In this document: one piece after another, positions 3,793 to 34,053 of the stretch
How the letters are laid out: the number at the start of each line of letters is the position of its first letter
Position numbering within the stretch: position 1 is the first letter of the stretch
Origin: Psychrobacter sp. LV10R520-6
GTDB taxonomy: Bacteria; Pseudomonadota; Gammaproteobacteria; Pseudomonadales; Moraxellaceae
DNA: 64,000 bases
Direction of reading: 5' to 3'
Assembly (NCBI RefSeq): GCF_900182925.1
Contig: NZ_LT900024.1
Coordinates: forward strand, 1,364,001 to 1,428,000
The notes under the pieces: generated by a model
Database searches by the model: none
What the model saw: only the letters and a program-made list of their open reading frames with translations
What the model was told of the DNA's origin: nothing
Translations under genes and position numbers: made by a program

Positions 3793-3869
3793 GGGCCCAT
3801 AGCTCAGTTGGTTAGAGCAGAGGACTCATAATCCTTTGGTCGTTGGTTCGAGTCCAACTGGGCCCACCA
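3793..3869 (+). tRNA. tRNA with CAU anticodon (Met or lysidine-modified Ile2)
   Basis: A 77-base cloverleaf folds cleanly: acceptor GGGCCCA/TGGGCCC, D arm GCTC/GAGC, anticodon stem GAGGA/TCCTT with loop CTCATAA, T arm GTTGG/CCAAC with TTCGAGT loop, and an encoded CCA tail. The anticodon CAU could read AUG (elongator Met) or, after lysidine modification, AUA (Ile2). It lacks the three G-C pairs of an initiator anticodon stem. I lean to neither without a comparison. Confidence 0.95.
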
Positions 3870-3874
3870 TATTC

Positions 3875-3909
3875 AAACCCTTGTAAGCTACGTCTTATAA
3901 GGGTTTTTT
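3875..3909 (+). terminator. Rho-independent terminator after the tRNA
   Basis: A 13-bp stem with one G-T pair (AAACCCTTGTAAG / CTTATAAGGGTTT) around a 6-base loop, followed by a T run. Confidence 0.85.
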
Positions 3910-3976
3910 ATTGGCTATGGATTGGTGCAGTCTAAAAGTGTCGAATCTCTTCTTAACCTCGTCAGTTTGTAATTAG

Positions 3977-5023
3977 TCACAACTCTTGCACCAATCTTTC
4001 TAACAACGTAATGGCACGCTCTTGTCTGACCTGAGTAACACCTTGTCCTGCCCATAATGACAGATGTTCTGCATCCTCATTTTTCGCAGCATTAGCACGC
4101 ATCGGACTAGTCATTGCATTTAATTGTGGATAAGGCGGCAGTTCATCTTTTTTATCGAAAACAGCAAAATCAAGTAGATATTCGTTCACAAGACCACGTG
4201 CCTGTTTGCCTGAAAACAGCCGAGTTAAGCGAGTTTCAGTACTCCGATTACCAAGACTTGTATCCAGTAGAGCCTGTTTATAAATGTCATTAATGCCGGA
4301 TTCATCGGTAGTCAAAAACGCAGTACCAAGCTGAGCCAGCTGTGCCCCAGACGCTTGTATAGCCCTAATACCTTGCCCCGTCATTATGCCACCTGAAGCA
4401 ATCAAGGGAATGTCAGTACAAGCACGCGTTTGCCCAATCAAAGTTAACAAACCTAATGGATCGGCCTCGCTTTCTGGCAACCAACCACCGCGATGTCCTC
4501 CAGCTTCCATTCCTTGTAAGCATACTGCATCCGCACCAATTTCTGCCCATGCCTGCGCCTCCAACGGATGATTGGCTGTACCTATAACGCAAGTCCCAAG
4601 CTGTTGTAAACGCTGTACTTGCTCAATACTAACAATACCAAAAGTAAAACTAACAACAGATACAGGATTTTCATAGAGTACTTGTAGCTGCTCAGCGAAA
4701 CTTTGTGCTGGCCTATCAGGAAGCGCTGCTTTTATATGATGCTCTCTATAATACTGAGTGAGCCAATCTGGCATTGAGGTGTCAAAAGTACTGGCATCCT
4801 GGTCTGATAGCACCATTAGATTAACCATAAAAGGACGCTCAGTAAGTGTTTTTATCATATCAATTTGGCTATTTAAAGCAGCTGGTGCGGTCATGCCTGC
4901 CCCTAACGAGCCAAGGCCACCGAAATCACTAACAGCAGCAATCAGTTCAGGCGTTGTTGCACCGCCTGCCATTGGTGCTTGAATAATGGGGTAAGTTATT
5001 CCAAGTTGGTCTAATAACTTCAT
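3977..5023 (-). CDS. Nitronate monooxygenase / 2-nitropropane dioxygenase family
   Basis: A 348-residue FMN-dependent TIM-barrel enzyme. The N-terminus (PIIQAPMAGG) and the glycine-rich MEAGGHRGG motif, with the conserved catalytic histidine, define the family, which oxidises alkyl nitronates such as propionate-3-nitronate to less toxic products. Other FMN-binding stretches (ASGGIMTGQGI and AQLGTAFLTTDES) are present, and length matches the family. It ends close to, and convergent with, the tRNA terminator region. The upstream neighbour on the same strand is a TetR regulator 350 bases away, so they may be separate units. The exact substrate is not readable from sequence; some enoyl-ACP reductases (FabK) share this fold, but the histidine motif favours nitronate monooxygenase. 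Confidence 0.85.
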   Translation of the reverse strand: MKLLDQLGITYPIIQAPMAGGATTPELIAAVSDFGGLGSLGAGMTAPAALNSQIDMIKTLTERPFMVNLMVLSDQDASTFDTSMPDWLTQYYREHHIKAALPDRPAQSFAEQLQVLYENPVSVVSFTFGIVSIEQVQRLQQLGTCVIGTANHPLEAQAWAEIGADAVCLQGMEAGGHRGGWLPESEADPLGLLTLIGQTRACTDIPLIASGGIMTGQGIRAIQASGAQLAQLGTAFLTTDESGINDIYKQALLDTSLGNRSTETRLTRLFSGKQARGLVNEYLLDFAVFDKKDELPPYPQLNAMTSPMRANAAKNEDAEHLSLWAGQGVTQVRQERAITLLERLVQEL

Positions 5024-5371
5024 TGGTTATATTTCCTGTTGATAATATTTGGCTATGATTAAAGCATATTAAATATTAAGAGTACTTGCTGGATTTAATA
5101 TCCGCGAACAAGTCATTTAGGTACTACTACCGTGTCAAGTAGAGCAGCGATTGCATGTAAACGATAAACAGATAAATGACAGTCGTCTAACAAAGCGCAC
5201 TAGATGGTCGTTCGTTATGAGGTAAATAATCGATCTCATTCTTTAGTAAATACTTAGTTCCAGAGGTTAATAACTAGAACATATTGGCTCGTATAGTCAA
5301 CTGTTTAATCAGAATCTTATTACTAAATGACGAAGTCAATATAGCAAGGCTAATATTGAGCATAGGGATAC
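5024..5371. other. Intergenic stretch without a recognisable gene
   Basis: An AT-rich 348-base gap between the nitronate monooxygenase and the TetR gene. It presumably holds the promoter of the monooxygenase gene near 5030-5100. I see no open frame with family resemblance, no clear hairpin and no IS end. Confidence 0.6.
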
Positions 5372-16566: not shown

Positions 16567-16761
16567 GGCTGTTACTCAGTTAAAACATTGAGTCTGCCTG
16601 AGAGCTATTGTGAAATATTGAAGAAAATTACTTAAGAGATATCCTACCAGTAAATTGCGCGCTAGTTGTCATCCATACCTACTTTATCAAAGTGAATGCA
16701 TCTTGAGACAGCTTAGAGGTGATAAGTTTAAATCAATCAGGGTGTAACGCTTGAGTTAAGT

Positions 16762-16998
16762 ATGATGCAGAATAAGAGAGATAAAAAAATCTGCGAAGAC
16801 TATTGGACATATAATAATAAAGTAGGTTTTATTAGACACATACAATCACTTTGCCAAAAATACGAGCTTAGTTCTCATATGTTATTTGAGACGATATCAA
16901 AATGCTACGCTTTTTTAGATGATGTTCTCTGTAAATACTGCGGAAGTGCTTGTCCGATTGAGGTGCCAGCAGATATTCCTTATATGCATTCGAAAATC
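16762..16998 (+). pseudogene. 5' fragment of an unidentified gene cut by IS1
   Basis: The frame opens at 16762 and encodes 79 native residues (MMQNKRDKKICEDYWTYNNK onward) with a CKYCGSACPIEVP segment that could bind metal. At 16999 it enters the left inverted repeat of the IS1-family element and its remaining 47 codons are IS sequence read backwards. The native 3' part is missing: beyond the other IS end lies a different gene on the opposite strand, so the rest was deleted. I do not recognise a named family; it may belong to the small accessory proteins often seen in defence islands. Confidence 0.6.
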
Positions 16999-17787
16999 GG
17001 TGGTGTTTCAAAAAGTATGCTGGCATTAGACGAAGCCATAGTTGATATAAAAGAACACCATATTGAACGTCTTAAAGTGATTGTCGAGTTTCTTAGAAAA
17101 AGCACAAGTCTTTCTAACTGCTCGCCTCAATCGGTGTCTTAAACGGCAATTATTACCTTCTATGCCAACAGTATATCTTTTACCAATCTGCTTAGGGTCT
17201 GCCTTGAAGGCAGTTTTAAAGCTATCCCAGTTGTCCATGCTGATTGAACCATAGCTCACCTTAAGTTTCTTAAGACGAGCTCGAAGCTTTTTAGCCGTGG
17301 CTAAAACATGGGCAACAATCTCACCAGTATCACGGTCATAGGCGTAGATTAACCATACCTTCTGCTTCTTGCAACGTACGTATGTCCAGAACTCATCAAC
17401 TTCTAAACGCGAGTAGTAATGCTGCTTTGGTGAGGTCTTATAGATCGATGAGCCTATGGTGCTTAGTATCTTGCCAATGCTGACAGAGGTGATAGTGGCA
17501 ATGTCTCTAACACTACAGCCTCGTACTATCATCAGTCGTATCTTATGCTCTATTTTAGAGTGGCAACCCTGATAGGTAATGGCGTGGTCGCCAATGAATT
17601 GACGTTTACAGTCTTTGCATTGGTAGTTTTGCTTACCATAGCTTTTTATACCGTTTTTCTTTAGACTAGGACTGTGGCAGTCGGGGCAATTAATCTCTAT
17701 TTGTGTCTTCATAACCTCAAATATAGCATCTTTGCTTTGGCTGGCACCCCTCCTTTATTTACTCAGCATACTTTTTGATACACCACC
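16999..17787 (-). mobile_element. IS1-family insertion sequence with full ends
   Basis: Two 24-base inverted terminal repeats with one mismatch face each other at 16999 and 17787 (each begins GGTGGTGT and ends AGTATGCTG). The 789-bp unit holds one transposase gene. The flanks (CGAAAATC on the left, CGATATTT on the right) do not form a target duplication, which points to a deletion or recombination after insertion. Confidence 0.88.
17026..17712 (-). CDS. IS1-family transposase (single-frame)
   Basis: 228 residues: an N-terminal zinc ribbon (CPDCHSPSLKKNG ... CKDCKRQF), an HTH region, and the IS1 catalytic domain (RLEVDEFWTYV with the first Asp, SMDNWDSF with the second, and the C-terminal block with the Glu, ending FFYINYGFV). 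Unlike E. coli IS1, which needs a frameshift to make InsAB, this protein is in one frame, as in other non-enteric IS1 relatives. It appears intact. Confidence 0.9.
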   Translation of the reverse strand: MKTQIEINCPDCHSPSLKKNGIKSYGKQNYQCKDCKRQFIGDHAITYQGCHSKIEHKIRLMIVRGCSVRDIATITSVSIGKILSTIGSSIYKTSPKQHYYSRLEVDEFWTYVRCKKQKVWLIYAYDRDTGEIVAHVLATAKKLRARLKKLKVSYGSISMDNWDSFKTAFKADPKQIGKRYTVGIEGNNCRLRHRLRRAVRKTCAFSKKLDNHFKTFNMVFFYINYGFV

Positions 17788-19354
17788 CGATATTTTCAAG
17801 CGCCCATAAAAGCCCTGTTAAATAATTTTGCCCAAAAGTAGCTGTGGTTTCTTGATGAAATAATGCAACAAATGGTGATGGATTTGTATCAATGGCTGCT
17901 TCTACTGCTTGTAAGAAAAATATTGGGCTAGCTTCTGCTAATGTTGGCAATAAACTATCAAGACTTCCCCATCGTAGCCAATCACTTGCTTGAAATAAAC
18001 TATGCACTGTAGTATTTGCAATGTGTTCAGCTTTGCCGTCTGAGCAGTTAGAAAGTGAGTCAGATTTATTACCTAAAAGGGCTAAGGTTTCCGCAACGCC
18101 CTGACGTAAACTATGGGAATGAGGTAAAAATTTATCATAGATGCTAGCCATATAACGTTCATCTTTTGGTAGGTCAAATGATGGATCATCAATTTGTAAT
18201 ATATCAAGAACAACCTGCATAAACCGTTCTAAATGATCGTCAAAAATCCTTGCTCCTAAGTCAGACCAAAGCTTTTTGCGATCTTTTATAAGCCACAGTC
18301 CATTTTTGTATGAGAAAGGAGTGTCATGAATAGCTAGCGTGTTTCTTAACTCCGCTATCCAAGTATCGTAGTCTTCACCCACAATAATAGATACGGCTTG
18401 TTTATCGGCTTCATTTTTTTCATTCCAACTACCAACCAGATTTGCAAAAGCTAGTTGCTCGGCTGATTTATGATTGCTCCAGTTAGTGGACTGAGCTGGT
18501 AACTGCGGAAGGTTAGCAATTGATGCTAGATGTTCAGGAAGATATGCCAATTTTGGTGTTTCAAAGTGTTTCTTAATATCTTCAGACAAATTCTCTAATG
18601 TAATAGTGCCTGCATTTTGATTAAACTGTTGAACTTCAGCAATTATTTTGCACCAAATTTCATGAGGTGATTGCTTGTCAAATTGAGCAATGTGCGATTG
18701 CATGAGTGAGGAAACGACACTCCCTTTCTTATCTAAATCATAACCTAGCAAATGAAAATGTTTTAAAAATTCAAAAAAATCATTGTCAGATATATCACTA
18801 CCATGTGCTTTTTTGAGTTGGGATCTAAAAGCATCTCGTTTACTTCTTGCATTATTAGAGCTAAATTTTGCTCGATCAATTTGTCTAGAAAATTCAGCAA
18901 AATCCCGTGTATGACGCGCTTGTTCTAGAATAAAGTTGACACTATCAATGTTTGTTTTACTAATAGGTCCAGTAATCAACGCAATGACATCTTTCCCTTT
19001 ACTAAAAACATCTTTATCATTAAAGTCAGCCCATGCAGATTGAATCACTTCTTCAAATATACTATTGTTTTCAGTAATGTTAATTGAATGCTTTATTTGA
19101 CCTAAAAGTCTTCTGTTATCATTACCATTACTTGGATTCTCTATTGTAATAATTACATCATCTGTGTTGTATCCTGCGATTTTACCTTGTAATTTAATTT
19201 CTTTAATTGGCCAAGACGGTAAGCAGGGGGCGTAGCCACCTGTTAGCATTAAAGTGACAAACTTTGCTTGAATGGCATTCTCGAAACTTGCACCACCACT
19301 ACCTGTAGAGAATGGATTGCTAAGTTGTTTTTGTTTTAAATTCATGGCTTTCAC
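17759..19354 (-). pseudogene. Large nuclease-domain protein (Cap4/DUF4297-like N-terminus), C-terminally truncated by IS1
   Basis: The N-terminal 120 residues carry a PD-(D/E)xK-type pattern: GASFENAIQAKF, then TDDVIITIE and LLGQIKHS, equivalent to the E...DD...QxK sites of dsDNA nuclease domains of the Cap4/DUF4297 kind. The remainder is mainly helical with no P-loop. The frame ends WCIKKYAE-stop, but these last residues are encoded by the IS1 inverted repeat that begins at 17787; native coding stops at codon ENI/G. From memory, relatives of this protein run to more than 1,000 residues after the TGLLWALE motif, so half or more may be lost. It lies 260 bases downstream of the Shango-like operon on the same strand and may be a separate defence gene or a cargo of the island. 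Confidence 0.7.
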
Positions 19355-19614: not shown

Positions 19615-21957
19615 TCATAATTCTAAGTCTGTTTTTTTGAAGCCCTTCAACCACTCTTTCAAGTCACCAATATCAAACGCTTGTGCCCCGTAGCCAATAG
19701 TAAGCAAGTCCTCAGGTAAGTATTCATCAAACTTCTCAACCAGTTTATTAGGTACGGTTTCGGCCAGCTCGGTAGCAGATGGCAGTGGCTGAGTGGCAAG
19801 CTTTTGTAAAAACTGATGGATTTGAATCGAATCAACTTCATTCACGCGAATGACACCTGCATAAACCTCAACGATGAAGTCATGTCGTATCAGTAATGCT
19901 ACTAAGGTGTTCACAACCTTATCGCCACGCCACATAAATATATAGCTATTGCCGTCTTGGTCTATAACTGGCTGGTTGTTTAAATCGTACCTTCTAAAAG
20001 TATCGATACTTTCTGAGAACAGTTGCCTTGCCGTCTCATCAGCAAAATCTACGTGATGGTTACCCACTTGAATACGGTAATCGCCATTGCTTAATATCTC
20101 ATACATCTCTTGACGGACTCGGTCATGTATCGACATGCCATCGCCGCCAAAAGTGGGAGGCTTGCCACCACCTTTGACGGAGATTACATCGACCACCTTT
20201 TTATCCATGTCGATATTTTTGACTTGCCAGCGTCTACCGCTAAAAATAATATATTGCTCAGGTATTAGCATGGTTTCGACAGGTAAAGTGCCAAGCGTTC
20301 TGTTACCCGTCACGATACGATATTCTTCTAGGGTTTTAAAAACAGCGTAAAAAGTATAATGACCGACAATGCGTTCACCAATAATCCCTAATACCAATTG
20401 CTGATTACCAAGCTGGGTAAGCAATTGCATCTGCCCCATCTGGGTAAGCAGCGACTTAAAGTGCACCGGTTGTATTTGCTGAAACGGTCCTTGTTTACAT
20501 AGCAGCATATAGAGCTGGTCAGCACGAATACCGCCCCATTGACCGATAGTCGCCAGCACTTGATGCAATAGCGTTGAGAAATGATACAGCGAGGTATCGG
20601 CAGGCTCAAACCACTTACTGATAATCAGCAGTCGTATCATCGCCAGTGACTGAATTAACTTAAGACGTAGCTTGTCAGTGAGACTGGTATCTTTATCGAT
20701 TTCTTTTTCGGTGATAAGCATTCTTAGTACCGCTGAATCGCCACGTCTGCCTGAACGCCCAAGCCGCTGCCGCAAGCTGGCAACAGAATGCGGTGCCGTC
20801 ACTTGTACAACCGTATCAACCTTACCAATATCAATCCCCAGCTCTAAAGTCATGGTGCATATAGCAGTGGTCGGAAGTGCTTCTTTTTGCAGTCGTTTTT
20901 CTAAGCTTTCTCTAAGCTCTTTTGACAATGAGCCATGATGAGGGAAGAATTCATTAGGAACAATATTATACTCACACAAATCACTAAGCTCTGTAGCTAT
21001 CATCTCTGTGCGCTGACGACTATTGGCAAAAACCAGATGACTTCCACCTCGGCAAAACCGGTATAAATCAGCACAAACTTGCGCCTCAGCAGTATAAGGG
21101 TGCTCAATACCCATATTTTTAGAATCAGGGTTTTCAACATCAATGTTTTTAGAGTCTGCTTCAAACGCCAACTTACTTGGCTGCACATAGCCCTTTACTT
21201 GTACCTTAATACTGGCTTTCGCCTCATCTTCTTCAATGATGACGCAAGGGAATGACTGATTAGGCCGCAATGATTGCGGTACGCTTTCTAAATCACCTAA
21301 CGTCGCGCTTAATGCGACCCGTGGAATAGGTGAGTCCAAACGTTCAGTGAGGTGCTCAAGGCGCGTTAATAATGACAATAAGTGCTGACCGCGCTCGCTA
21401 CCTAAGAACGCATGAAACTCATCAATAACGATATATTTTAAGCTGCCAAAAGCTTGCTTTACCCAGCCTGCATCTCGAACTAATAAGGATTCAAGTGACT
21501 CAGGGGTAATCAGAATAATGCCTGATGGCGACTTTTTTTGTTGCTGTTTTTTACTGCGCGGGCTGTCACCATGCCAAGGTGTTACTTGCATATCTAGTAA
21601 TTTTTCTAAGCTCTCTAGCCTGCGATATTGATCATTGATTAGTGCTTTTAACGGGCTGATATAGAGAATCCCTACTCCTTCACTTTCTCTCTCACGATGG
21701 TCGATATTCTGCTCAGAATCTGTTGTAACAAGGACGCTACACGCTGGCAAAAAGAACGCTTCCGTCTTGCCAGCAGCCGTTGCCGCGCTGATAAGCACGT
21801 CGGTTTGCCCAGATAAAATGGGGGCAATTGCTTTGGCTTGTACCTCGCGTAATCCATGCCAACCTTGATTAAATATCCAACGTTGAATGCGACTATCTAG
21901 CTGAAGGTGGGCATCTCTCAAGGGTAATTTCTCATCTACTTTGTTAGGGTCGCCCAC
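19615..21957 (-). CDS. sngC: Lhr/BrxHI-like superfamily 2 helicase, Shango SngC-like
   Basis: 780 residues. Motifs in order: Walker A AATAAGKT (residues 58-65), Ib-type ISPLKALINDQ, ITPESLE, DEFH box (about 177), SAT (about 215), and in the second RecA domain HLVFANSRQR, TLELGIDIGKVD and the arginine-finger motif QRLGRSGRRG. The DEFH box and layout are those of Lhr-type and BrxHI-type DNA helicases. The start is 3 bases after the stop of the upstream ATPase gene, so translation is coupled. TerB-domain protein, BrxD-like ATPase and helicase in this order are the components of the Shango anti-phage system (established knowledge, from memory); the match to Shango is by domain content, not alignment. 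Confidence 0.82.
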   Translation of the reverse strand: MGDPNKVDEKLPLRDAHLQLDSRIQRWIFNQGWHGLREVQAKAIAPILSGQTDVLISAATAAGKTEAFFLPACSVLVTTDSEQNIDHRERESEGVGILYISPLKALINDQYRRLESLEKLLDMQVTPWHGDSPRSKKQQQKKSPSGIILITPESLESLLVRDAGWVKQAFGSLKYIVIDEFHAFLGSERGQHLLSLLTRLEHLTERLDSPIPRVALSATLGDLESVPQSLRPNQSFPCVIIEEDEAKASIKVQVKGYVQPSKLAFEADSKNIDVENPDSKNMGIEHPYTAEAQVCADLYRFCRGGSHLVFANSRQRTEMIATELSDLCEYNIVPNEFFPHHGSLSKELRESLEKRLQKEALPTTAICTMTLELGIDIGKVDTVVQVTAPHSVASLRQRLGRSGRRGDSAVLRMLITEKEIDKDTSLTDKLRLKLIQSLAMIRLLIISKWFEPADTSLYHFSTLLHQVLATIGQWGGIRADQLYMLLCKQGPFQQIQPVHFKSLLTQMGQMQLLTQLGNQQLVLGIIGERIVGHYTFYAVFKTLEEYRIVTGNRTLGTLPVETMLIPEQYIIFSGRRWQVKNIDMDKKVVDVISVKGGGKPPTFGGDGMSIHDRVRQEMYEILSNGDYRIQVGNHHVDFADETARQLFSESIDTFRRYDLNNQPVIDQDGNSYIFMWRGDKVVNTLVALLIRHDFIVEVYAGVIRVNEVDSIQIHQFLQKLATQPLPSATELAETVPNKLVEKFDEYLPEDLLTIGYGAQAFDIGDLKEWLKGFKKTDLEL

Positions 21958-21960
21958 GGC

Positions 21961-23274
21961 TTATAGCTTAAAATCGGCAAGTCCGTCTTCTTCATCCATA
22001 CCATTCATACCAATGTCCATATCGGATGGCATTTCAGGGTCAATAGATACTGAGTTAATGAGCTGATCCCATGAAATATCTGGGTTTTGGTCAATGACAG
22101 CTAACATATCCAAAAACGCTTTAATGGTGTTACGAGGCGTTCTAAAATAAGCATCGCCAATCGTTTGACTACAATGCTGTAAAAAGGCTTGTAGCGATTC
22201 CTCAGGTACTAGATATTCAGATTCATCACCGCCTGCATAGACGTGACGCAGGTTTTTAAGCAAAATGTATAGCTCTTCTGGCGTGAGGCTAGCCAAATGT
22301 AATGCTGGTGACGAGTAGTCAATCACCCCTGCTTGCTTGGCAAAGCTATTGTCTGCTAAACGCGTTTGTAAGGCATCATAGCTATATAACCCTTTACGCG
22401 GGTCAAGTAAGAATTCGGGCGTGCCCCCTAATAAAAACCCTAGATGCTCAGCGGTACCTTGCAGGCAGTCATTTAAGATACGCAAAATTTGCTCGTAATT
22501 GGCTTGGCGTGCTTGGGTACTATTGAGCTTATATAAGTTAACCATCTCATCAAGATTGACCAGCAGCCCTTGATAGCCTGCTTGCCTTACAAATAAGCTC
22601 ATCAATTTGAGGGCATCATAAAAGGAGGCGTCAGATATAATAGTACGCACGCCCAAGTCCCGTCTGGCATCAGTCTTAGTCGAGTACTCTGCTCGCAGCC
22701 AACGAATGGCATTCACTTTTAACTCATCATCACCGTCTTCGTGTCCCTGCCAATAGGCTTCGATAACCTTAGCAAAATCATAACCACCAACCAACTCCGT
22801 CAACTCGGCTAGCTTGTGTTGGATGATATCGCTAATAGCCTCACCCGTACTATCCGCTTGTTTGCGGGCTTCGGTAATAAAGCGTTCGACCACACTGGCT
22901 AACCCATTACCATCCGGTTTATTACGAGTAGATAAATTACGCATAAGCTCAGAATATAAATTCCTTGCTTGTCCAGACGATGCTTGGATACGCCTATCAG
23001 GCGATAAATCAGCATTAACAGTGACCAGCTTTCGCTCAAGAGCAATCGCCCTTACCACACTCAGAAAAAAGGTCTTGCCTGAACCATATTCACCAATAAT
23101 AAGTCGAAATGCTGAGCCGCCATCAGCAACGCGTTCAATATCACTTATTAACGCTTTAAGCTCATTGATGCGCCCGACTTGGATATGCTGGATACCGACC
23201 TTGGGAGTGACCCCTGCCTTCAATGACTGAATAATAGCGTCACGCTCTTTTGCTCTGATTTTTTTACTGGCCAT
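21961..23274 (-). CDS. sngB: BrxD-like ATPase (DUF2791), Shango SngB-like
   Basis: 437 residues of the DUF2791/BrxD P-loop ATPase family: Walker A GEYGSGKT at residues 61-68 and Walker B GLLVNLDEM at about 240; the N-terminus (IQHIQVGRINELKALISDIERVADGG, given here as a pattern in two halves) is typical of the family. Such ATPases work with SF2 helicases in BREX type 2 and Shango. It sits between the TerB-domain gene (38 bases upstream) and the helicase gene (3 bases downstream), all on the minus strand, clearly one operon. It probably loads or powers the helicase on DNA; that is inference. Confidence 0.85.
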   Translation of the reverse strand: MASKKIRAKERDAIIQSLKAGVTPKVGIQHIQVGRINELKALISDIERVADGGSAFRLIIGEYGSGKTFFLSVVRAIALERKLVTVNADLSPDRRIQASSGQARNLYSELMRNLSTRNKPDGNGLASVVERFITEARKQADSTGEAISDIIQHKLAELTELVGGYDFAKVIEAYWQGHEDGDDELKVNAIRWLRAEYSTKTDARRDLGVRTIISDASFYDALKLMSLFVRQAGYQGLLVNLDEMVNLYKLNSTQARQANYEQILRILNDCLQGTAEHLGFLLGGTPEFLLDPRKGLYSYDALQTRLADNSFAKQAGVIDYSSPALHLASLTPEELYILLKNLRHVYAGGDESEYLVPEESLQAFLQHCSQTIGDAYFRTPRNTIKAFLDMLAVIDQNPDISWDQLINSVSIDPEMPSDMDIGMNGMDEEDGLADFKL

Positions 23275-23312
23275 TGTTTATCCTTGCTAGTTTTTAGAAT
23301 TGGTTTTTATAT

Positions 23313-25796
23313 TTAATCCAATGTTTTTAACTCTTCGACAATCTCAAAATCAATCACTACCTCATCATTATCTTCGAATACCGGCGCATCGACATTATCA
23401 TACGCCCAATCGTTAATAGTTTCGATAGCGCCATTTATCATCAGGTTTAGTGACTCACATAGGGCTTCAATTTCTGCTCGCGGCCATACTTCTTTGCTAA
23501 TTAACTGCTGATAAAGCCTGCTATGAATACTATCTAAACCTTTGGTAACGGACTCATTAGCGGCATTAACGTCAGTATGGTTATCTACTTGTTCATTGGG
23601 TAGTGAATCACTGTCCGTTCCTATATCGTCATTATCTGCCGCAAAGATACTGGCCAGCATTGCTTTAGCATCGCCTGTTTCGCTTTCATACGAGGCCAAT
23701 AATTCTGCATCAAAACTAAATGACTTATTATTATGGCTATTGTCATTGGCACTCTTCTGCTGTGCCGCATCACTCAACGTTGTGGCTACCTTTTTAGCGG
23801 TGGTCAAATGATGGATGTCGCTAACCGCTGACGTTTTATCAAGTCCTAAAGCCTGATATAACTTTTCAATTTGTTTGATTTGACCGAGTTCGACATTACC
23901 ATTAGCCAAAGCAACCAAGATAATGAAGCGACTGATAAAGCCAATATGCGGGTCATCAAGCGTTGCCAGCTTTGCCTTTAGACCTGCCATATTGGACGGG
24001 GTGTTTAGTCGCCATAGCAGATAAGCCGTGAGTGATACTTGTTCAATGGTGGTAAGCTGAGTATCTCGATCGATAATTGTCAGCAGCGTCTCTACTTCTC
24101 TTTTATCAACACAACCGTTAATGGTCGCCACCATAGCCCCCAATCTCAGCGCCAAACTGACTTGATAAAACGACGCACTCGGTTGAAAATATTGTCCATG
24201 ACCTCTATCAAATAACACCACATGACCATCTAGCTTAAGACTGGTCTCATGATAACGTTGGTCTGGGACAATACCAAACCCTGCTAACTCCGCTAAATTT
24301 ACGATAAGCTCATTATGCTTTTTAGTCAGTGATTTAGTTGAGGATTGCGGTAGCGGCTCGTCTAAATGTGCCCATAACTCTTTCGTCGTCGTCAGCCCTT
24401 CGTCATTTTGGATAACAGACTCAGCCCAAGTTTGAAATTCGTGTATCACTGCATATTTTTCTTGATGCGCTTGCTGCTGAATAAGCGCTGGTGGCAGTAG
24501 CATAATGGCGGCTATATCGCCTTCAGAGTGGCCTTCTTTACCCAAATAGCGACTATAGGCATCCAAAGTATAGTTGCATTGTTCTGCAATCGCTATCAGC
24601 TTTTTGACAGGCGCTTTTAGACCGCTGGGGTCTGGCAAATCATCCATAGTGAGCTCGATACTGACGATTGAGCGACTGGCCGCATGATAGCTGATCTTCA
24701 ATTTGGTTTTATTAGGAGCAACAATAAAGCCATTAGGATAGGTTTGCTGATAGATAATATCGAATAAGGCTTTAAATGAGTCTTCACAGCGCTTGGCCGG
24801 CGTTTTAAAGTTATATTTATCAGAAAATACCAACCACTCCCAAGCTAAAGTCGCAGGAATAGCTGATTTTAACGCGACTGTTTTTGCTAAATGCATCTTA
24901 AATCTTAGATTTTGGCTGCTAGCTGGTGGCGGTAAAAGCTGCGCGGCTCTTTTCTTATCTTCAAACAATGGTGAGCGGATAAGGGACATAAACTCTAAAA
25001 AACGAACTGAATAGTTGTTAAAGGAGGATTGCTTACCATAAACATTATGCAGCCGTAATATCTCATTATAGAGAGCGATAAACTCGTCGTCAGAAACGGT
25101 ATCATTATTAATATTATTAATATTTTCAATAATTCTACGCTCAAACCCGCCAAAATAGATAAACACATAGCCGATAGGCGTGTTGAGATGCGCGCGGTCT
25201 GATGCCAACCAATCTAGATAAGCGCCGCGACATGCTGATGACAAGCGCGCATAACTTGGCCAGTAGCCAAGCGACTCATCACTATGAATTTGTGAGATAC
25301 TGTGTATGACTTTTGGCGGACTAACTAGCAGGCCTTCATCTACCAACGAGGGCTCAGTAATATAACCCGTTAACGCCTCGAGGTGCACGCCTGCGTAATA
25401 AAACCCGCGCGCTATTTGACGCTTATTGATCGTAAGAGCTTCATGCTCTGTAACCCAGAGCCCTAATTTTTGAGTCGATGCAGCAGCCTTATAGGTGGGT
25501 TTATTAGAGGATATGATAAAGGTTGCTAGCTCATCCACACTATCATCATCATTATTATTATGATTCTGTTTTCTGGTCTTATTTTGGCTATGTTGATGAC
25601 TTTGGCTACTTTGGGTATTCGGACTGGCAAAGTTGTTGGGATTGGCCACTTTCGGACTGACCACGGGCTCGTCATTGCGGGCAGACGGCTTTATATCAGG
25701 CGGCAAGCTTATGGATTTAGTGTGCCCTGTTTTATAACTTTGAGGCTCATACTTTTTTTTGAAAAGAGCAAGCACATCTACAATAAAATTTTTCAT
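23313..25796 (-). CDS. sngA: TerB-N/TerB-C domain protein, Shango SngA-like
   Basis: 827 residues. After a low-complexity Asn/Ser/His-rich stretch (about 35-90) comes a TerB-N domain whose hallmark GYWPSYARLSSACRGAYLDWL and PIGYVFIYFGGFERR blocks lie near residues 180-225. A TerB core (acidic helices, FIILVALANGNVELGQIKQI, about 630-650) and a TerB-C domain at the end follow. TerB domains were first seen in tellurite-resistance loci and are thought to act at the membrane or as metal-sensing helical modules; here the linkage to an ATPase and helicase indicates DNA processing and phage defence. It is the first gene of the operon; no other Ter genes are nearby. Confidence 0.85.
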   Translation of the reverse strand: MKNFIVDVLALFKKKYEPQSYKTGHTKSISLPPDIKPSARNDEPVVSPKVANPNNFASPNTQSSQSHQHSQNKTRKQNHNNNDDDSVDELATFIISSNKPTYKAAASTQKLGLWVTEHEALTINKRQIARGFYYAGVHLEALTGYITEPSLVDEGLLVSPPKVIHSISQIHSDESLGYWPSYARLSSACRGAYLDWLASDRAHLNTPIGYVFIYFGGFERRIIENINNINNDTVSDDEFIALYNEILRLHNVYGKQSSFNNYSVRFLEFMSLIRSPLFEDKKRAAQLLPPPASSQNLRFKMHLAKTVALKSAIPATLAWEWLVFSDKYNFKTPAKRCEDSFKALFDIIYQQTYPNGFIVAPNKTKLKISYHAASRSIVSIELTMDDLPDPSGLKAPVKKLIAIAEQCNYTLDAYSRYLGKEGHSEGDIAAIMLLPPALIQQQAHQEKYAVIHEFQTWAESVIQNDEGLTTTKELWAHLDEPLPQSSTKSLTKKHNELIVNLAELAGFGIVPDQRYHETSLKLDGHVVLFDRGHGQYFQPSASFYQVSLALRLGAMVATINGCVDKREVETLLTIIDRDTQLTTIEQVSLTAYLLWRLNTPSNMAGLKAKLATLDDPHIGFISRFIILVALANGNVELGQIKQIEKLYQALGLDKTSAVSDIHHLTTAKKVATTLSDAAQQKSANDNSHNNKSFSFDAELLASYESETGDAKAMLASIFAADNDDIGTDSDSLPNEQVDNHTDVNAANESVTKGLDSIHSRLYQQLISKEVWPRAEIEALCESLNLMINGAIETINDWAYDNVDAPVFEDNDEVVIDFEIVEELKTLD

Positions 25797-25999
25797 TAAA
25801 TATGAGACCCATACTAAATTGATTGCAAATCAAAAAAATGGCAACACTAAGTTGATAACTATTAATTGGTTATTAGTGAAAGAGTGATCATTTTAGCAAC
25901 AAACGTAAGGCATCTAGTCTGTTTATTTGCAATTAATTTATTTAGAGTCTTATCTATTTACAATAGGTAGCCAATTATAGTTATAGTCGGCACACTTTA

Positions 26000-26150
26000 A
26001 AACAGAGACAGCGCATTAAAGAACTTGAGCGTGAAAATAAATAACTAAAACAAGTCAATGAAATCATACGCATATGACAAGATAGTAAACGCCGTTATGG
26101 TGTTCGTAAGGTTTAGCACTGAACCGCTTGAAGTATATTAAAGGCTAGGT
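26000..26150 (+). pseudogene. Decayed IS3-family transposase remnant
   Basis: One frame reads KQRQRIKELERENK-stop-LKQVNEIIR, the tail of an IS3 OrfA with its leucine-zipper repeat, and a following stretch reads RRYGVRKV-stop, the start of the OrfB block RYGxRKVW. Stops and small indels break both. It marks an old insertion at the edge of the defence island. Confidence 0.75.
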
Positions 26151-26341
26151 AGTTGTACCAGATCGATGAATCAAATAAAACTGTCTCACTTCTAGTGAAT
26201 CACCATTAAATAATTATTTTAACACTCTCATGAAACACAGAAATCTTCCTCAGAGCAACCGAAGTCAGCAAACTTGTGACATCTAATACAAATACCGAAG
26301 CTAAAATTGCCCAATAGCTTGAAGCTACTTTTAGAATAATC

Positions 26342-26376
26342 TTGATTTATTTTAAAATGTCTGTATTATTGGACAT
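26342..26376 (+). promoter_or_regulatory. arsR promoter with overlapping ArsR operator
   Basis: TTGATT (26342-26347), 16 bases, TATTAT (26364-26369) form a plausible sigma-70 promoter. A 5-bp inverted repeat ATGTC-N10-GACAT (26357-26376) covers the -10 element and ends exactly at the start codon. There is no Shine-Dalgarno sequence, so the transcript may be leaderless. Confidence 0.55.
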
Positions 26377-26727
26377 ATGGAAATGACTAATGCAATCGCC
26401 AGCTTCGCTGCGCTATCTCAAGACACTCGGTTAAAGGCATTTAGACTGCTGGTCAGTCATGAGCCTGATGGGCTGCCTGCCGGTGAAATTGCCCGTCAAC
26501 TGTCTGTACCTCATAATACGATGTCCGCTCATCTAGCAGTGTTATCGCGAGCTGGATGGGTCCTCTCGCAACGCCAAAGTCGTCAGATTATCTATCGCGC
26601 TTCATTGTCGCATATGGAAGCAGTCGTTCAGTTTTTATTACAAGACTGCTGTGCTGGGCATCCGGAATTGTGTTCCTCTCTTATAGACCGTTTAAGTGGC
26701 TGTGGTATCAATAAATCCAACAACTGA
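26377..26727 (+). CDS. arsR: ArsR-family arsenic-responsive repressor
   Basis: 116 residues with a winged helix (LPAGEIARQLSVPHNTMSAHLAVLSRAG). Cysteines near the C-terminus (DCCAGHPELC, about residues 88-97) could form the As(III) site; they are in the position used by Corynebacterium/Acidithiobacillus-type ArsR rather than the E. coli helix-3 CVCDLC site. First gene of the ars operon. The ATG at 26377 lies at the predicted transcription start and has no ribosome binding site; the ATG at 26383 is the alternative. Confidence 0.9.
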   Translation: MEMTNAIASFAALSQDTRLKAFRLLVSHEPDGLPAGEIARQLSVPHNTMSAHLAVLSRAGWVLSQRQSRQIIYRASLSHMEAVVQFLLQDCCAGHPELCSSLIDRLSGCGINKSNN

Positions 26728-26803
26728 ATTGCTAATCTAGCCAAGAATCAGACCACTAAACACCCTAACAATAACATCAATAATAATAATACCTAAGGTC
26801 ACT

Positions 26804-27943
26804 ATGACATCACTCATTTTTCACAATCCCAACTGCGGTACTTCTCGTAATACTTTGGCCATACTAAGAGCTTCCGGTGAACAGCCCAATGTGGTTGAAT
26901 ATCTCAAAACACCGCCCACTCGTGAGTATCTGATCGAGCTACTGACGTTAATGAGTATTGCACCACGAGATCTGCTACGTCGTAAAGGCACACCTTATGA
27001 GGATCTGGGCTTAGACAATCCAGCGTTATCTGATGATCAGCTCATTGATGCTATGGTTGCGCACCCTATCTTAATCAATCGTCCTATTGTCGTCACAGAT
27101 AAAGGCGCTGCCTTATGCCGACCTTCAGAGCGGGTTTTTGAATTATTGAATAATCCAGTGGCTACTTTTACGAAAGAAGAGGGAGAAGTCATCCAATCTG
27201 ATAAAGACAATGCCCTACATGCATCTATCGATTTGATTGACTTATCCAATATCGATCCAGAGAATATGCACTCAATCGACATTGATTCCTTAATTGGCTC
27301 AAACGACCCTAGACATCCTCCAAAAATATTGGTGTTATACGGTTCCCTTCGTGAGCGCTCATTTTCTAAACTGGCCGCCCAAGAGGCGAGCCGTCTACTA
27401 CGTTGGTATGGTTGTGAGGTTCGTACCTTTGATCCTGCCGGCCTACCATTACCTGATAGTACCGATACCGATCATCCTAAGGTGCAAGAATTACGTGAGC
27501 TGGCAGCGTGGTCAGAAGGCATGCTATGGGTAAGTCCCGAGCGCCACGGTAGTATCACCAGTATCATGAAAGCGCAGATTGACTGGATTCCACTATCGCT
27601 AGGAGGCGTGCGTCCCACCCAAGGTAAGACGCTTGCCGTGATGCAAGTCAGCGGTGGCAGTCAGAGCTTTAACACGGTCAATCAGCTACGTATTCTGGGA
27701 CGTTGGATGCGCATGATTACCATACCCAATCAATCCTCTATCCCCAAAGCCTTTTTGGAATTCGATGATGATGATCGCATGAAAATGTCGCCACTGTACA
27801 CTCGCATTGTCGATGTGTGTGAAGAGTTGGTTAAATTCACGTGGATGACTCGAGGGTGCTCAGCGTATCTCACCGATCGCTATTCAGAACGAGTGGAAAA
27901 CGCTGAAGAAGTATCACAGCGCGTCAACCAAAAACCTATCTAA
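26804..27943 (+). CDS. ArsC-ArsH fusion: arsenate reductase joined to ArsH flavoprotein
   Basis: 379 residues. Residues 1-118 are a glutaredoxin-dependent arsenate reductase with the catalytic Cys11 in [11 protein letters not shown] and conserved NRPIV and CRPSE blocks. A polar linker (about 119-168) leads to an ArsH domain (about 169-370) with the FMN-binding [12 protein letters not shown] loop, [19 protein letters not shown] and [21 protein letters not shown]. ArsC reduces As(V) to As(III); ArsH oxidises trivalent organoarsenicals and also acts as an NADPH:FMN reductase. The two are normally separate genes; here there is no stop or frameshift between them. It sits between arsR and the arsB-like gene in one operon. 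Confidence 0.9.
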
Positions 27944-27985
27944 CGTTTAATCTCTGCAACGTCATTGTTTTATTAAGGCGACTTC

Positions 27986-29293
27986 ATGTTAGCACTAGCG
28001 ATTTTTATCGTCACCTTGACCTTAGTCATTTGGCAGCCTAAGGGGCTTGGTATTGGATGGAGTGCGATTGGTGGGGCTTTAATCGCCTTACTGTTTGGCG
28101 TGGTTCATTGGTCAGATATTGCTATCGTATGGAATATTGTATGGGATGCGACCTTCACCTTTGTGGCGCTTATCATCATCTCACTGATATTGGATGACGC
28201 TGGGTTTTTTGGCTGGTCGGCCCTCCATGTCGCGAAATGGGGCAAGGGTCAAGGTCGGCGACTGTTTCCCATGATAGTGATTTTAGGGGCGTTCATTGCG
28301 GCTTTTTTTGCCAATGATGGTGCAGCGCTACTGCTAACGCCTATTGTTATCGCTATTCTGCTGCGTCTTGATTTTCCACCAAAATCAGCCTTAGCATTTA
28401 TCATTGCCACTGGTTTTATTGCAGATACCGCCAGTCTACCGTTAGTCACCTCTAATCTGGTCAATATTGTTAGTGCCAATTATTTCGATATAGGTTTCGG
28501 ACGCTATGCTTCGGTCATGGTGCCGGTGAATATTGTATCTGTGATAGCGACTTTACTGGTGTTGTGGGTCGTTTATGCTCGCAGTATTCCAAAACACTAT
28601 TCAACCGCTGACCTCATTTCACCACAATCTGCTATCAAAGATCCTTTGGTTTTCCGCGCCGCATTTCCGCTCTTGGCGTTATTGCTTGTTGCTTATTTTG
28701 CGACTGAGTCATTAGGTATCCCTATTTCATTGGTGACCGGAACAGCGGCGTTATTGCTTATGGCGATTGCAGGACGCTTTTGGCAAGGTGGTCGAGGTGC
28801 CATTGTTTCTGTGCCAGATGTCCTGCGTAAAGCCCCTTGGCAAATCGTATTGTTTTCAATAGGCATGTACTTGGTTGTTTATGGTTTGGGAAATGCGGGA
28901 CTAACCGCATACGGCGCGCAAATACTCAACTGGCTAGGGCAACAAGGCGATGTGGTTGCCACATTAGGAACTGGATTTCTCTCTGCTATCGTAGCCTCAG
29001 TCATGAACAATATGCCATCAACCCTCATCGGTGCACTCGCCATTGACCATGCACAAGTACCCGCAGCGACGCGCGAGCTGATGATTTATGCCAATGTCAT
29101 TGGAAACGATTTAGGGCCAAAATTCACGCCTATTGGCAGTCTAGCGACCTTATTATGGTTACATGTACTCGCAGAAAAAGACTACAAAATCAGCTGGGGT
29201 CAGTATATGAAAATTGGACTAATCATTACCCCACCCGTATTATTAGCAACCCTTTTGGCCTTAGTATTTTGGTTACCTGTCATAAACGGATAA
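27986..29293 (+). CDS. arsB: Arsenite efflux permease ArsB
   Basis: 435 residues with about 11-12 transmembrane segments; [20 protein letters not shown] and the [13 protein letters not shown] blocks are those of the ArsB (ion transporter superfamily) family. It exports As(OH)3 or Sb(OH)3 from the cytoplasm, alone as a proton antiporter or with ArsA; no arsA gene is here. It follows the ArsC-ArsH fusion after 42 bases, with AAGGCGA as ribosome binding site, and completes the operon. Confidence 0.93.
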
Positions 29294-29421
29294 ATCGGTT
29301 ATCAAGCGTTTGAGTAAGATATGATTTTCTGCTAGCTGCTGACCAATCGACTTATTATCTAAATTGATCGCAATCAATACCTCACGTTCTATGGTAGAAA
29401 TGCCATATAATCTTCTACAGT

Positions 29422-29439
29422 CAGTTCAAAATAAAAGAG
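29422..29439 (+). repeat. 18-base dispersed repeat, copy 1
   Basis: CAGTTCAAAATAAAAGAG occurs exactly here and at 30710-30727, both in gene-free DNA. It may be the end of a decayed element; the partner copy lies beside a GTGCGAACAGCACG-like hairpin. Confidence 0.7.
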
Positions 29440-29474
29440 GCTGTTACCTTAGTGTTTAAGCTATAATACATAAA

Positions 29475-29489
29475 TGAGAATCATTCATA
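29475..29489 (+). promoter_or_regulatory. Fur-box-like sequence
   Basis: TGAGAATCATTCATA matches most of the Fur core pattern TGATAATNATTATCA. It lies 150 bases before the cupin gene, with a palindrome between, so its target is uncertain. Confidence 0.3.
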
Positions 29490-29533
29490 TAAATAACGTT
29501 AACAAGTGCCATTCTCAGGTCTATACTGTTAAG

Positions 29534-29579
29534 ATGAACTACCCACTACCTTAGAGGTAGGGGACTTCTGCGCTAAAAT
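29534..29579 (-). repeat. Solo IS200/IS605-type palindrome
   Basis: On the minus strand: TTTTAGCGCAGAAG, then a hairpin CCCCTACCT-CTA-AGGTAGTGGG with one bulged T, then TAGTTCA. The first 38 bases match 41767-41804 exactly, and the last part matches the right end of the element at 42047-42053. It thus combines both outer ends around a single hairpin with nothing inside. Confidence 0.8.
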
Positions 29580-29639
29580 GTTAAATGGTTAGTTCAAGAT
29601 AAAACTCTATCAGAAGAACCCATTAATCGAGGAGTTACC

Positions 29640-30041
29640 ATGAGCCATTTAGTTATCCCAAGCCATTGGAAAATAAAACGTTCTACTCATTTTTTTACTA
29701 AGGATAAAGTCCCTGACGCTTTATTAAACCATCACAACACCGCTGAAGGCGTTTACGGCCAAATTTGCGTCATGCAAGGCACTGTCACTTTCTACGGATT
29801 TGCCAATGAAGCGGCCACCGAACCTGAGAAAACCATAGTAATCCAAGCGGGACAATTTGCCGTCAGCCCACCTGAATATTGGCATCGGGTAGAATTAACT
29901 GATGACGCCCAATTCAACATTAACTTCTGGACTGAAGGAGATACCGGTAATAAATCGATGTTCAATAGCTCTAAGATTCACAGTAAACCGATTGAAGCCT
30001 TATTTGATAAATCAGACAATGATAAACCAGCTGAGGAATAA
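29640..30041 (+). CDS. DUF1971 cupin (YeaR/TehB N-terminal-like)
   Basis: 133 residues forming a single cupin barrel. The blocks TEGVYGQICVMQGTV-type (here AEGVYGQICVMQGTV) and SPPEYWHRVELTDDAQFNINFW match the DUF1971 family found in E. coli YeaR and at the N-terminus of some TehB proteins linked to tellurite resistance. A strong GAGGAG ribosome binding site precedes the ATG. Function unknown; a small-molecule or metal-binding role is likely because histidine and glutamate ligands are in cupin positions. A TehB-like methyltransferase lies 800 bases downstream on the other strand. Confidence 0.75.
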   Translation: MSHLVIPSHWKIKRSTHFFTKDKVPDALLNHHNTAEGVYGQICVMQGTVTFYGFANEAATEPEKTIVIQAGQFAVSPPEYWHRVELTDDAQFNINFWTEGDTGNKSMFNSSKIHSKPIEALFDKSDNDKPAEE

Positions 30042-32997: not shown

Positions 32998-34053
32998 CTA
33001 TAGATTATTAATTTCAACTTCTCCGAAAACATCAATTTTTGCTTTCTTGAATTTTAAGTGCTTTAGTTCTGGATTTTTCTTAGCTATTTCAACTATTTTG
33101 TCTATTGATATACTGTCTGTAGAATATCCAAAGATTATAGACTCCATTGCATCGAAAGAAATTTTTTTGAGGAATATTTCATTATAATCAGGAAAAGTAC
33201 GCCTTAGTTCTTCAGGCATATTAATATCAAAAGTTGGATTAGCTATCGAGCCTGTCCGGTCTTCACAATATTCTAAAGGCATAACTATTCGCATCTCTTT
33301 CTCATAACCCCAATCATCAAATTTCGTATAAAACAATCGTTTTGCAAGTTGCTCAAACTCTTGTTTTCGAGGTGCTAGTCGTTTGAACAAACTTGTGACG
33401 TTTAAATCTTCAGGTAATTTAAAGTGATTAGAGCTCTCTCCATTTATTCTGATTGTTCCTTGAACATAGCTAATAGAAGCTCTATCTTCTTTGTTATAAC
33501 TTACATCTTGAAGCTCAGACTTTTTAAAAAATGGATGTTCCTTATCAAAGCATACAACTAAACCTTCACCATTGTTTGCATAGTGAGTCCACATCAACTT
33601 ATTTTTAGTGCTTTTAGAAAGTGAAAACACACCAAATTGGCAACTTAGAGCTTCTATTATAAAGTTGTTAAAATCCTCAATATTTTCAACTAAATTTTTT
33701 CTCTGTGCTTCATTGTATTTTTCTACTGAATCATACTCAGTAAAACCTAAAAGAGTTGGGAATTCCTCAACACTATACCTTCTGCCTGCTGGTTTTAGAT
33801 AAAAATTAATCAGGTGTTCATCCGATGGCTCATGAGGTTCTGGATTAATATTAGAAATATAAAAACGTTTTCTAGCATTAGCCATGTCAGCAGGAGAGTA
33901 TTCATCAAAGTAAGGGTAGAACTTAGCTTCACTTTTATCGTTTAAAAATTTAGGCTGAGTCATCCGAAAAAAACCATTTTCTAAAAACTCATAACGTGGT
34001 AGCCATTTTTCGTGTTTATTACTATAAGAAGTTCCTAAGTACTTTACTAACAT
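32998..34053 (-). CDS. DUF2971-family protein
   Basis: 351 residues. The blocks FRMTQPKFLNDKSEAKFYP, SCQFGVFSLSKSTKNKLMWTHYANNGEGLVVCFD and YEKEMRIV are those of DUF2971, a family of unknown function frequently found in accessory and defence regions. No membrane segment or signal. The gene and its flanks are more AT-rich than the neighbours and it stands alone, which suggests horizontal arrival. No catalytic mechanism can be claimed. Confidence 0.82.
   Translation of the reverse strand: MLVKYLGTSYSNKHEKWLPRYEFLENGFFRMTQPKFLNDKSEAKFYPYFDEYSPADMANARKRFYISNINPEPHEPSDEHLINFYLKPAGRRYSVEEFPTLLGFTEYDSVEKYNEAQRKNLVENIEDFNNFIIEALSCQFGVFSLSKSTKNKLMWTHYANNGEGLVVCFDKEHPFFKKSELQDVSYNKEDRASISYVQGTIRINGESSNHFKLPEDLNVTSLFKRLAPRKQEFEQLAKRLFYTKFDDWGYEKEMRIVMPLEYCEDRTGSIANPTFDINMPEELRRTFPDYNEIFLKKISFDAMESIIFGYSTDSISIDKIVEIAKKNPELKHLKFKKAKIDVFGEVEINNL

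Follow-up and report, generated by a model that had tools for sequence, protein, structure and literature searches.

A Shango operon on a Psychrobacter chromosome, an ordinary copy save for lineage-specific changes in one domain of SngA

Introduction

Shango of Escherichia coli was reportedly described originally in Millman 2022. Like the locus reported here, the Shango systems of E. coli and Pseudomonas aeruginosa PA14 have a TerB protein, a BrxD-like ATPase and a DEAD/DEAH helicase. With the three-gene Shango of PA14 in strain PAO1, many Pseudomonas phages, not all of those tested, plate 10-100 fold lower (PMC10250203). In E. coli, Shango sits in genomic islands together with the antiplasmid system ApsAB (PMC11096173), and the system is also mentioned in PMC12375680. 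A review of February 2026 gives its mechanism as unknown (PMC12926258). Among the literature matches listed, the mechanism of Shango is absent from titles and abstract beginnings, most subscription journals being outside the scope of this search, and those for Psychrobacter together with Shango are unrelated papers only. Three types of described systems come close to Shango. BREX type 2 likewise has a related ATPase and an SF2 helicase as neighboring genes, BrxD and BrxHI, and BrxD has been proposed as a possible loader or activator of BrxHI (PMC12839542). Bunzi (BnzA-BnzB) shares the TerB domain (PF05099), which is listed for both systems (PMC10952713), but has two genes. Hachiman and Druantia are also centered on an SF2 helicase (PMC12278908, PMC13316683), but differ in their partner proteins HamA and DruH, respectively. 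SngC has been grouped with the helicases BrxHI, DruE and DpdJ (PMC12278908). The word Shango has 0 occurrences in PMC12839542, PMC12458937 and PMC13316683.

The sngA-sngB-sngC operon of Psychrobacter sp. LV10R520-6

The window, by which we mean the whole analyzed stretch of 64,000 nucleotides, contains three adjacent genes on the minus strand at 19615-25796, all of them open. The gene sngA (23313..25796) encodes 827 amino acids (aa) and matches the PADLOC profile of SngA with 2.4e-83 over residues 69-825. It is followed by sngB (21961..23274), encoding a 437-aa AAA+ ATPase (SngB, 3.5e-187, residues 1-436), and by sngC (19615..21921), encoding an SF2 helicase with a DEFH motif, which has 768 aa if a TTG start is used (SngC, 5.9e-266, residues 18-771 of the 780-aa frame). 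A sequence-only reading had assigned three frames of 827, 437 and 780 aa on one strand to Shango and had proposed profiles of the three proteins as a check. The frames are present as claimed, on the minus strand at 23313-25796, 21961-23274 and 19615-21957, the Shango profiles are the best PADLOC match for all three proteins, and no other family set lies ahead of them. The GEYGSGKT motif of the 437-aa ATPase, the DEFH motif of the 780-aa helicase and the TerB-N hallmarks of the 827-aa protein (Pfam TerB_N) could be confirmed as well. Of the spacings of 38 and 3 nt given there, which are those of the listed frames, the 38 nt between sngA and sngB hold, whereas the gap between sngB and sngC is probably 39 nt, because the GTG at 21957 is a GTT in the nearest relative (locus L026) and the TTG at 21921 is common to both. 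This TTG gives an N-terminus, RDAHL, that most Psychrobacter relatives share, and SngC therefore probably has 768 aa and not 780 aa.

Upstream of sngA, the intergenic region 25797..26376 extends to an arsR-like gene and is 91% identical to that of L026. We read it as holding a decayed transposase remnant; 30-31 bp of it are repeated at four other sites of the genome. A scan for promoters and terminators gave 26 promoter-like sites compared with 17.6 in shuffled sequences (sd 5.0), which is little above the shuffles, and terminator-like sites at the same level as in the shuffles.

Domains and predicted structures

SngA has a disordered N-terminus, a TerB_N domain (119-334, 3.5e-34), a TerB-like helical region (~540-660) and a TerB_C domain (683-824, 2.1e-28), the two named domains both being above the Pfam cut-offs. 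Its AlphaFold model reaches a pLDDT of 82.1 and a pTM of 0.64 (59 rows), with pLDDT below 50 at 18-88, 96-106, 675-692 and 720-747. Foldseek searches with this model, of which no match reaches E 0.001 and whose output comes without aligned ranges, are led by TerB folds (2h5n, probability 1.00, TM by target 0.60-0.64; 2ou3, 1.00, 0.52), and MarR-type winged helices appear weakly (7el2, probability 0.51; 2nnn, 0.44). A winged helix at ~440-530 of SngA is weakly suggested by the model. A nuclease was recognized in SngA neither by Pfam, nor by PDB sequence search, nor among the best 50 of 127 Foldseek rows.

SngB belongs to BrxC_BrxD in Pfam (2e-152) and carries a Walker A motif, GEYGSGKT, at 61-68 and a Walker B motif, LDE, at 241-243. 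PDB sequence search gave no convincing relatives of SngB. Its model is of moderate quality (pLDDT 77.3, 47 rows), and the leading Foldseek rows include BrxC of a BREX complex (9zll, probability 0.99), RdrA and ORC/Cdc6 (2qby, 1.00; 7tji, 0.99), all with probabilities of 0.96-1.00, but with E values of 1.3e-3 or above and a TM by query of ~0.3. General AAA+ proteins (ClpX, p97, Rix7) come closely behind, and a plant NLR also appears in the same rows. Since no match reaches E 0.001, the TM is low, the model is moderate and general AAA+ proteins are nearby, the likeness to ORC/Cdc6 is supportive and not proof; SngB is an AAA+ ATPase related to BrxD and probably of ORC/Cdc6 type. SngC has the Pfam domains DEAD and Helicase_C, and matches to ResIII as well as sub-cut-off Cas3-like matches fall on the same helicase domains.

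Distribution, gene order and selection

SngB is encoded in 17 of 105 Psychrobacter genomes, the own genome counted, with one copy each. A SngB profile built from 13 Psychrobacter proteins found at least 563 relatives among at least 593 pattern matches in contigs of one genome per species, and the best 80 of these relatives were taken as the wider set. By record, these 80 loci come from Gammaproteobacteria, other Pseudomonadota, Bacteroidota, Chlorobi, Chloroflexi, Actinomycetes, Myxococcota, Acidobacteriota, Cyanobacteria, Planctomycetota and others. In 68 of the best 80, sngA, sngB and sngC follow one another in this order, contiguously and on one strand. Among the 12 loci not counted as contiguous are records below 9 kb with a gene lost or split (L058, L096, L099, L106, L114, L117, L121), two loci with split sngA or sngC frames (L067, L078), two that were probably missed through mechanical frame choice (L103, L118), and L120, which has no sngC match despite 3.4 kb beyond sngB. 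Neighborhoods could be drawn for 77 of the 80 loci, L117, L118 and L121 having no sngB frame. By mechanically chosen starts, sngB and sngC overlap by 4 nt, as in translational coupling, in 44 of the 72 wider loci having both frames, whereas 24-67 nt separate the two genes in 15 of the 17 Psychrobacter loci; the remaining two have either a displaced sngC or a mechanically chosen sngC start that overlaps sngB. The displaced case is G077, where sngA and sngB are adjacent and sngC starts ~6.6 kb past sngB, after several genes (L029 38-11926). The length of SngA, 827 aa compared with 528 positions in the PADLOC model, was considered as a peculiarity and dismissed, as 71 of 79 sngA frames have 700-960 aa.

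Compared with L026, dN/dS is 0.169 for sngA, 0.043 for sngB and 0.211 for sngC, and judged from these ratios all three genes are under purifying selection. For farther relatives only identities are given, because dS is near or beyond saturation. Five Psychrobacter relatives share 89.2-95.4% with SngB, 73.0-86.2% with SngC and 58.6-70.4% with SngA. Positions conserved to at least 95% number 52 of 827 in SngA (72 sequences, i.e., the 71 loci with frames of 700-960 aa and the window), 172 of 437 in SngB (73 sequences) and 174 of 780 in SngC (67 sequences). SngA, with the lowest identity and the fewest conserved positions, is therefore the variable subunit. The ATPase and helicase motifs are conserved across loci, and D242 and E243 of SngB are invariant in 47 sequences. 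Because the same order and strand recur in other phyla and dN/dS to L026 is low, the operon is far beyond chance.

Genomic neighborhood

The sites of Shango vary among the Psychrobacter carriers. In the own genome and in G092 the operon lies beside arsenic genes, in seven genomes between a ychF/UvrD-like pair and an oxidoreductase gene, and in several other carriers it adjoins defence-like genes (gene names by our own reading). The window is collinear with G092 at 19648-29702, comprising Shango and the ars genes, with 94% identity. The gene at 3857-5030 directly adjoins sngC in G092, so that in the window these two stand ~14.6 kb apart. G090 matches an AraC-like/LysE-like stretch up to position 16696 with 86% identity and gave no SngB match. 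In the ars region, ArsC and ArsH domains are joined in one 379-aa frame (26804-27943, plus strand) beside an ArsR-type regulator and, by our own reading, a transporter-like gene. Farther on, a 351-aa protein (32998-34053, minus strand) matches the PADLOC candidate model PDC-S31 with 3.3e-22 over residues 111-340.

On the other side of the operon, a 531-aa open frame (17759..19354, minus strand) corresponds to the N-terminal part of a protein of ~1180-1190 aa, and its last codons lie inside an IS1-family element (16999..17787, minus strand) with terminal inverted repeats and a transposase frame at 17026-17712. The C-terminal remainder was not found in the window, and neither Pfam nor PADLOC assigns the frame to a family of its own. 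It shares 59.7% over residues 9-524 with a 1187-aa protein on a Shewanella baltica plasmid, which adjoins genes annotated as Abi family and superinfection exclusion, and its first ~265 residues share 43% with an Avs4-like protein in G041 (L043). Read from its sequence, the frame is a different, defence-like gene that was cut off by IS1 and lies outside Shango. As a fourth core gene it was rejected: relatives occur in 5 of 105 genomes (own included), Shango is present in only two of these, the own genome (G000) and G041, with the two lying on different contigs in G041, and there is no match at 1e-5 in the 80 wider loci. Seven other near-full copies of this IS1 are present in the genome. The copy next to the frame overlaps the end of a 126-aa frame at 16762, and its flanks (ttcgaaaatc and cgatattttc) do not match, which suggests an adjacent deletion or rearrangement instead of a simple insertion.

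Beyond the window, the genome contains a BREX core and Bunzi. The genes brxA, brxB, brxC, pglX and pglZ at 1454072-1464864 of the contig (G000:C1), ~64 kb from sngA, and bnzA-bnzB at 1450290-1453846 (PADLOC 3e-208 and 2.5e-183) follow each other on the same strand at 1450290-1464864 (L137 3290-17864), 22-37 kb past the window end. Type 1 BREX is expected to carry brxL at the place taken here by bnzA-bnzB, and the genome gave no match to BrxL_ATPase (PF13337). The neighborhood of BREX and Bunzi is possibly one of chance within an island, because two other Bunzi loci (G108; Vibrio plasmid NZ_CP071844) have no match to BREX proteins nearby. Of 199 genomes in the family, six gave a BnzA match, which was weak in three, and none of the papers in the collection searched joins Bunzi, BREX and BrxL. 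The Bunzi copies of this genome also differ from Shango in that they match no helicase or BrxD model at 1e-10.

TerB acidic residues and candidate partner genes

Acidic residues of TerB proteins are presumed to bind metal; the literature matches listed gave nothing usable in support of metal binding by the residues considered here. In contrast to other Shango, Psychrobacter SngA has neutralized acidic positions in the TerB-like region. Among 66 SngA proteins from outside the genus (71 SngA loci minus five of Psychrobacter), 64 have D560, 63 have D632 and 63 have E639, the exceptions being L081, L087, L090 and L102. The Psychrobacter set comprises 16 proteins, i.e., 17 minus the divergent SngA of G057 (33% identity), which has N, D and R at the three positions in a barely aligning stretch. 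In this set N occupies position 560 in 14 proteins and D in two (G007 and G079); at position 632 there are 14 N, one K and one D (G007), and position 639 is always Q. The acidic residue is thus gone at 639 in 16/16, at 632 in 15/16 and at 560 in 14/16 proteins, whereas the nearby E567 is retained in all 16. SngA of the window has N560, N632 and Q639. The solved TerB chains 2h5n and 2jxu can be aligned, if weakly (E 0.0098 and 0.34, respectively), with the TerB-like region of SngA and have DG and then E at the aligned places.

In 6 of the 17 Psychrobacter loci (G041, G029, G077, G101, G102, G007), sngA is preceded at a distance of 37-52 nt, on the same strand, by a gene for a DEDDh exonuclease with a BRCT domain, one stop interrupting the copy of G102. 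This gene was located at L027 2139-3011, L028 12282-13154, L029 11979-12845, L031 13426-14292 and L039 4942-5811. Matches of 82-100% identity were obtained from those six Shango loci only. Elsewhere in the genomes there are 11 matches of 62-65%, including three in genomes with Shango (G026, G029, G091); in total 44 of 105 genomes match, most through the BRCT part alone, and the own genome has no such gene. Among the 80 wider loci the gene stands beside sngA in L044, L046 and L108, all Psychrobacter, and a Pseudohongiella MAG (L075) has a 38% relative ~6.8 kb from sngA. Another candidate, a gene of 726-733 aa upstream of sngA in seven Psychrobacter loci (UvrD-like by our own reading), was rejected, as close homologs occur in most members of the genus, with or without Shango; the top match in the own genome reaches E 7.4e-62 and is weaker.

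Shango compared with other readings of the locus

The ATPase and the helicase also match BREX type 2 proteins, SngB to BrxD with 2.7e-45 and SngC to BrxHI with 7.9e-111, and a BREX core is present in the same genome, from which the locus could be taken as part or remnant of BREX type 2. This is extremely improbable. SngB scores 620.9 bits with the Shango model and 153.3 with BrxD, SngC 882.8 bits with the Shango model and 369.5 with the best BrxHI model, so that Shango is ahead by 468 and 513 bits, respectively, and on the NCBIfam BrxD equivalog SngB scores 150 bits and misses the curated cut-off of 350 by 200. SngA reaches 279.5 bits and has no other PADLOC family at E 0.001. Furthermore, the operon has a TerB protein and lacks BrxC, PglX and PglZ, the BREX core with BrxA, BrxB, BrxC, PglX and PglZ is ~64 kb away, and the main text of the BREX survey PMC12839542 contains 0 occurrences of TerB and of Shango. 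The sequence-only reading had excluded BREX because PglX and PglZ were absent. For the window this absence is correct: tblastn with BrxA, BrxB, BrxC, PglX and PglZ of the genome found nothing there at 1e-3, and PglW was unreported among 15 PADLOC-scanned proteins, which are part of the frames of the window. For the genome it is wrong, as both proteins are present, the sole PglZ match lying ~65 kb off. BREX type 2 is therefore excluded on the grounds of profile scores and of what the operon encodes, and not because such genes are missing from the genome. In another reading, the operon could serve DNA repair or stress as a housekeeping unit of a TerB protein and an Lhr-like helicase, with no role in defence in Psychrobacter. 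Within the genus SngB is indeed highly conserved, 15 of 16 relatives sharing 89-98% identity and the remaining one 76%, and seven genomes have the operon at one chromosomal site. However, the operon is confined to 17 of 105 genomes and occupies several different places in them, a pattern that suits an accessory system acquired by transfer. Moreover, the tested Pseudomonas homolog restricts phages (PMC10250203), and neighbors in other loci are a TIR-like protein and a phosphorothioation-type gene set, both by our own reading, and a Mokosh-like helicase (MkoA model, 1.6e-41), which makes a housekeeping role very unlikely. The assignment to Shango, made from profiles, gene order and conservation, is thus retained, and anti-phage function of the Psychrobacter copy would follow by analogy with tested Shango homologs. 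We consider it highly probable that the locus is an intact chromosomal Shango operon with a general anti-phage function.

Proposed mechanism and implications

How Shango may act can be outlined tentatively, as one possibility. SngA would be the fast-evolving recognition or adaptor subunit, with TerB_N, a possible winged helix, TerB and TerB_C, and would sense the infection; its fast divergence compared with SngB fits a subunit confronted with varying phages. SngB would form an ATP-driven assembly and load or activate the Lhr-like SF2 helicase SngC on invading DNA, a step assumed by analogy with BrxD and BrxHI, where it is itself a proposal. SngC would then translocate on or unwind the phage DNA, whereby replication or processing would be blocked. 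Because no nuclease domain is recognized in SngA, SngB or SngC, we favor stalling or handover to host nucleases rather than direct cutting. Nuclease activity of the Shango proteins without a recognizable domain is possible, and such activity is discussed for Druantia (PMC13316683). Alternatively, SngA could be a sensor that unleashes SngB and SngC on DNA at large, so that growth of host and phage stops in an abortive infection. SngC falls into a group of defence helicases, helicase sensing of DNA damage is shown for Hachiman (PMC12278908), and Druantia III reportedly combines a replication block with non-canonical abortive infection (PMC13316683), but neither Pfam for the three proteins nor the SngA model with Foldseek revealed an effector nuclease, and we regard abortive infection as rather unlikely. 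The sequence of sensing by SngA, loading by SngB and action of SngC on phage DNA stays our preferred outline.

A more speculative view, to which we give little credence, is that Psychrobacter Shango is a metal-independent TerB variant, and that in one locus out of three the exonuclease-BRCT protein contributes a step of DNA degradation missing from three-gene Shango. Shango is widespread with a mechanism listed as unknown, and the Psychrobacter copy, an ordinary one of an already described system save for the lineage-specific changes in one domain, adds little by itself. If the variant were real, sensing or assembly in Psychrobacter Shango would no longer need a metal ion. The natural changes at 560, 632 and 639 on a near-constant SngB offer a ready test of the TerB acidic residues in defence.
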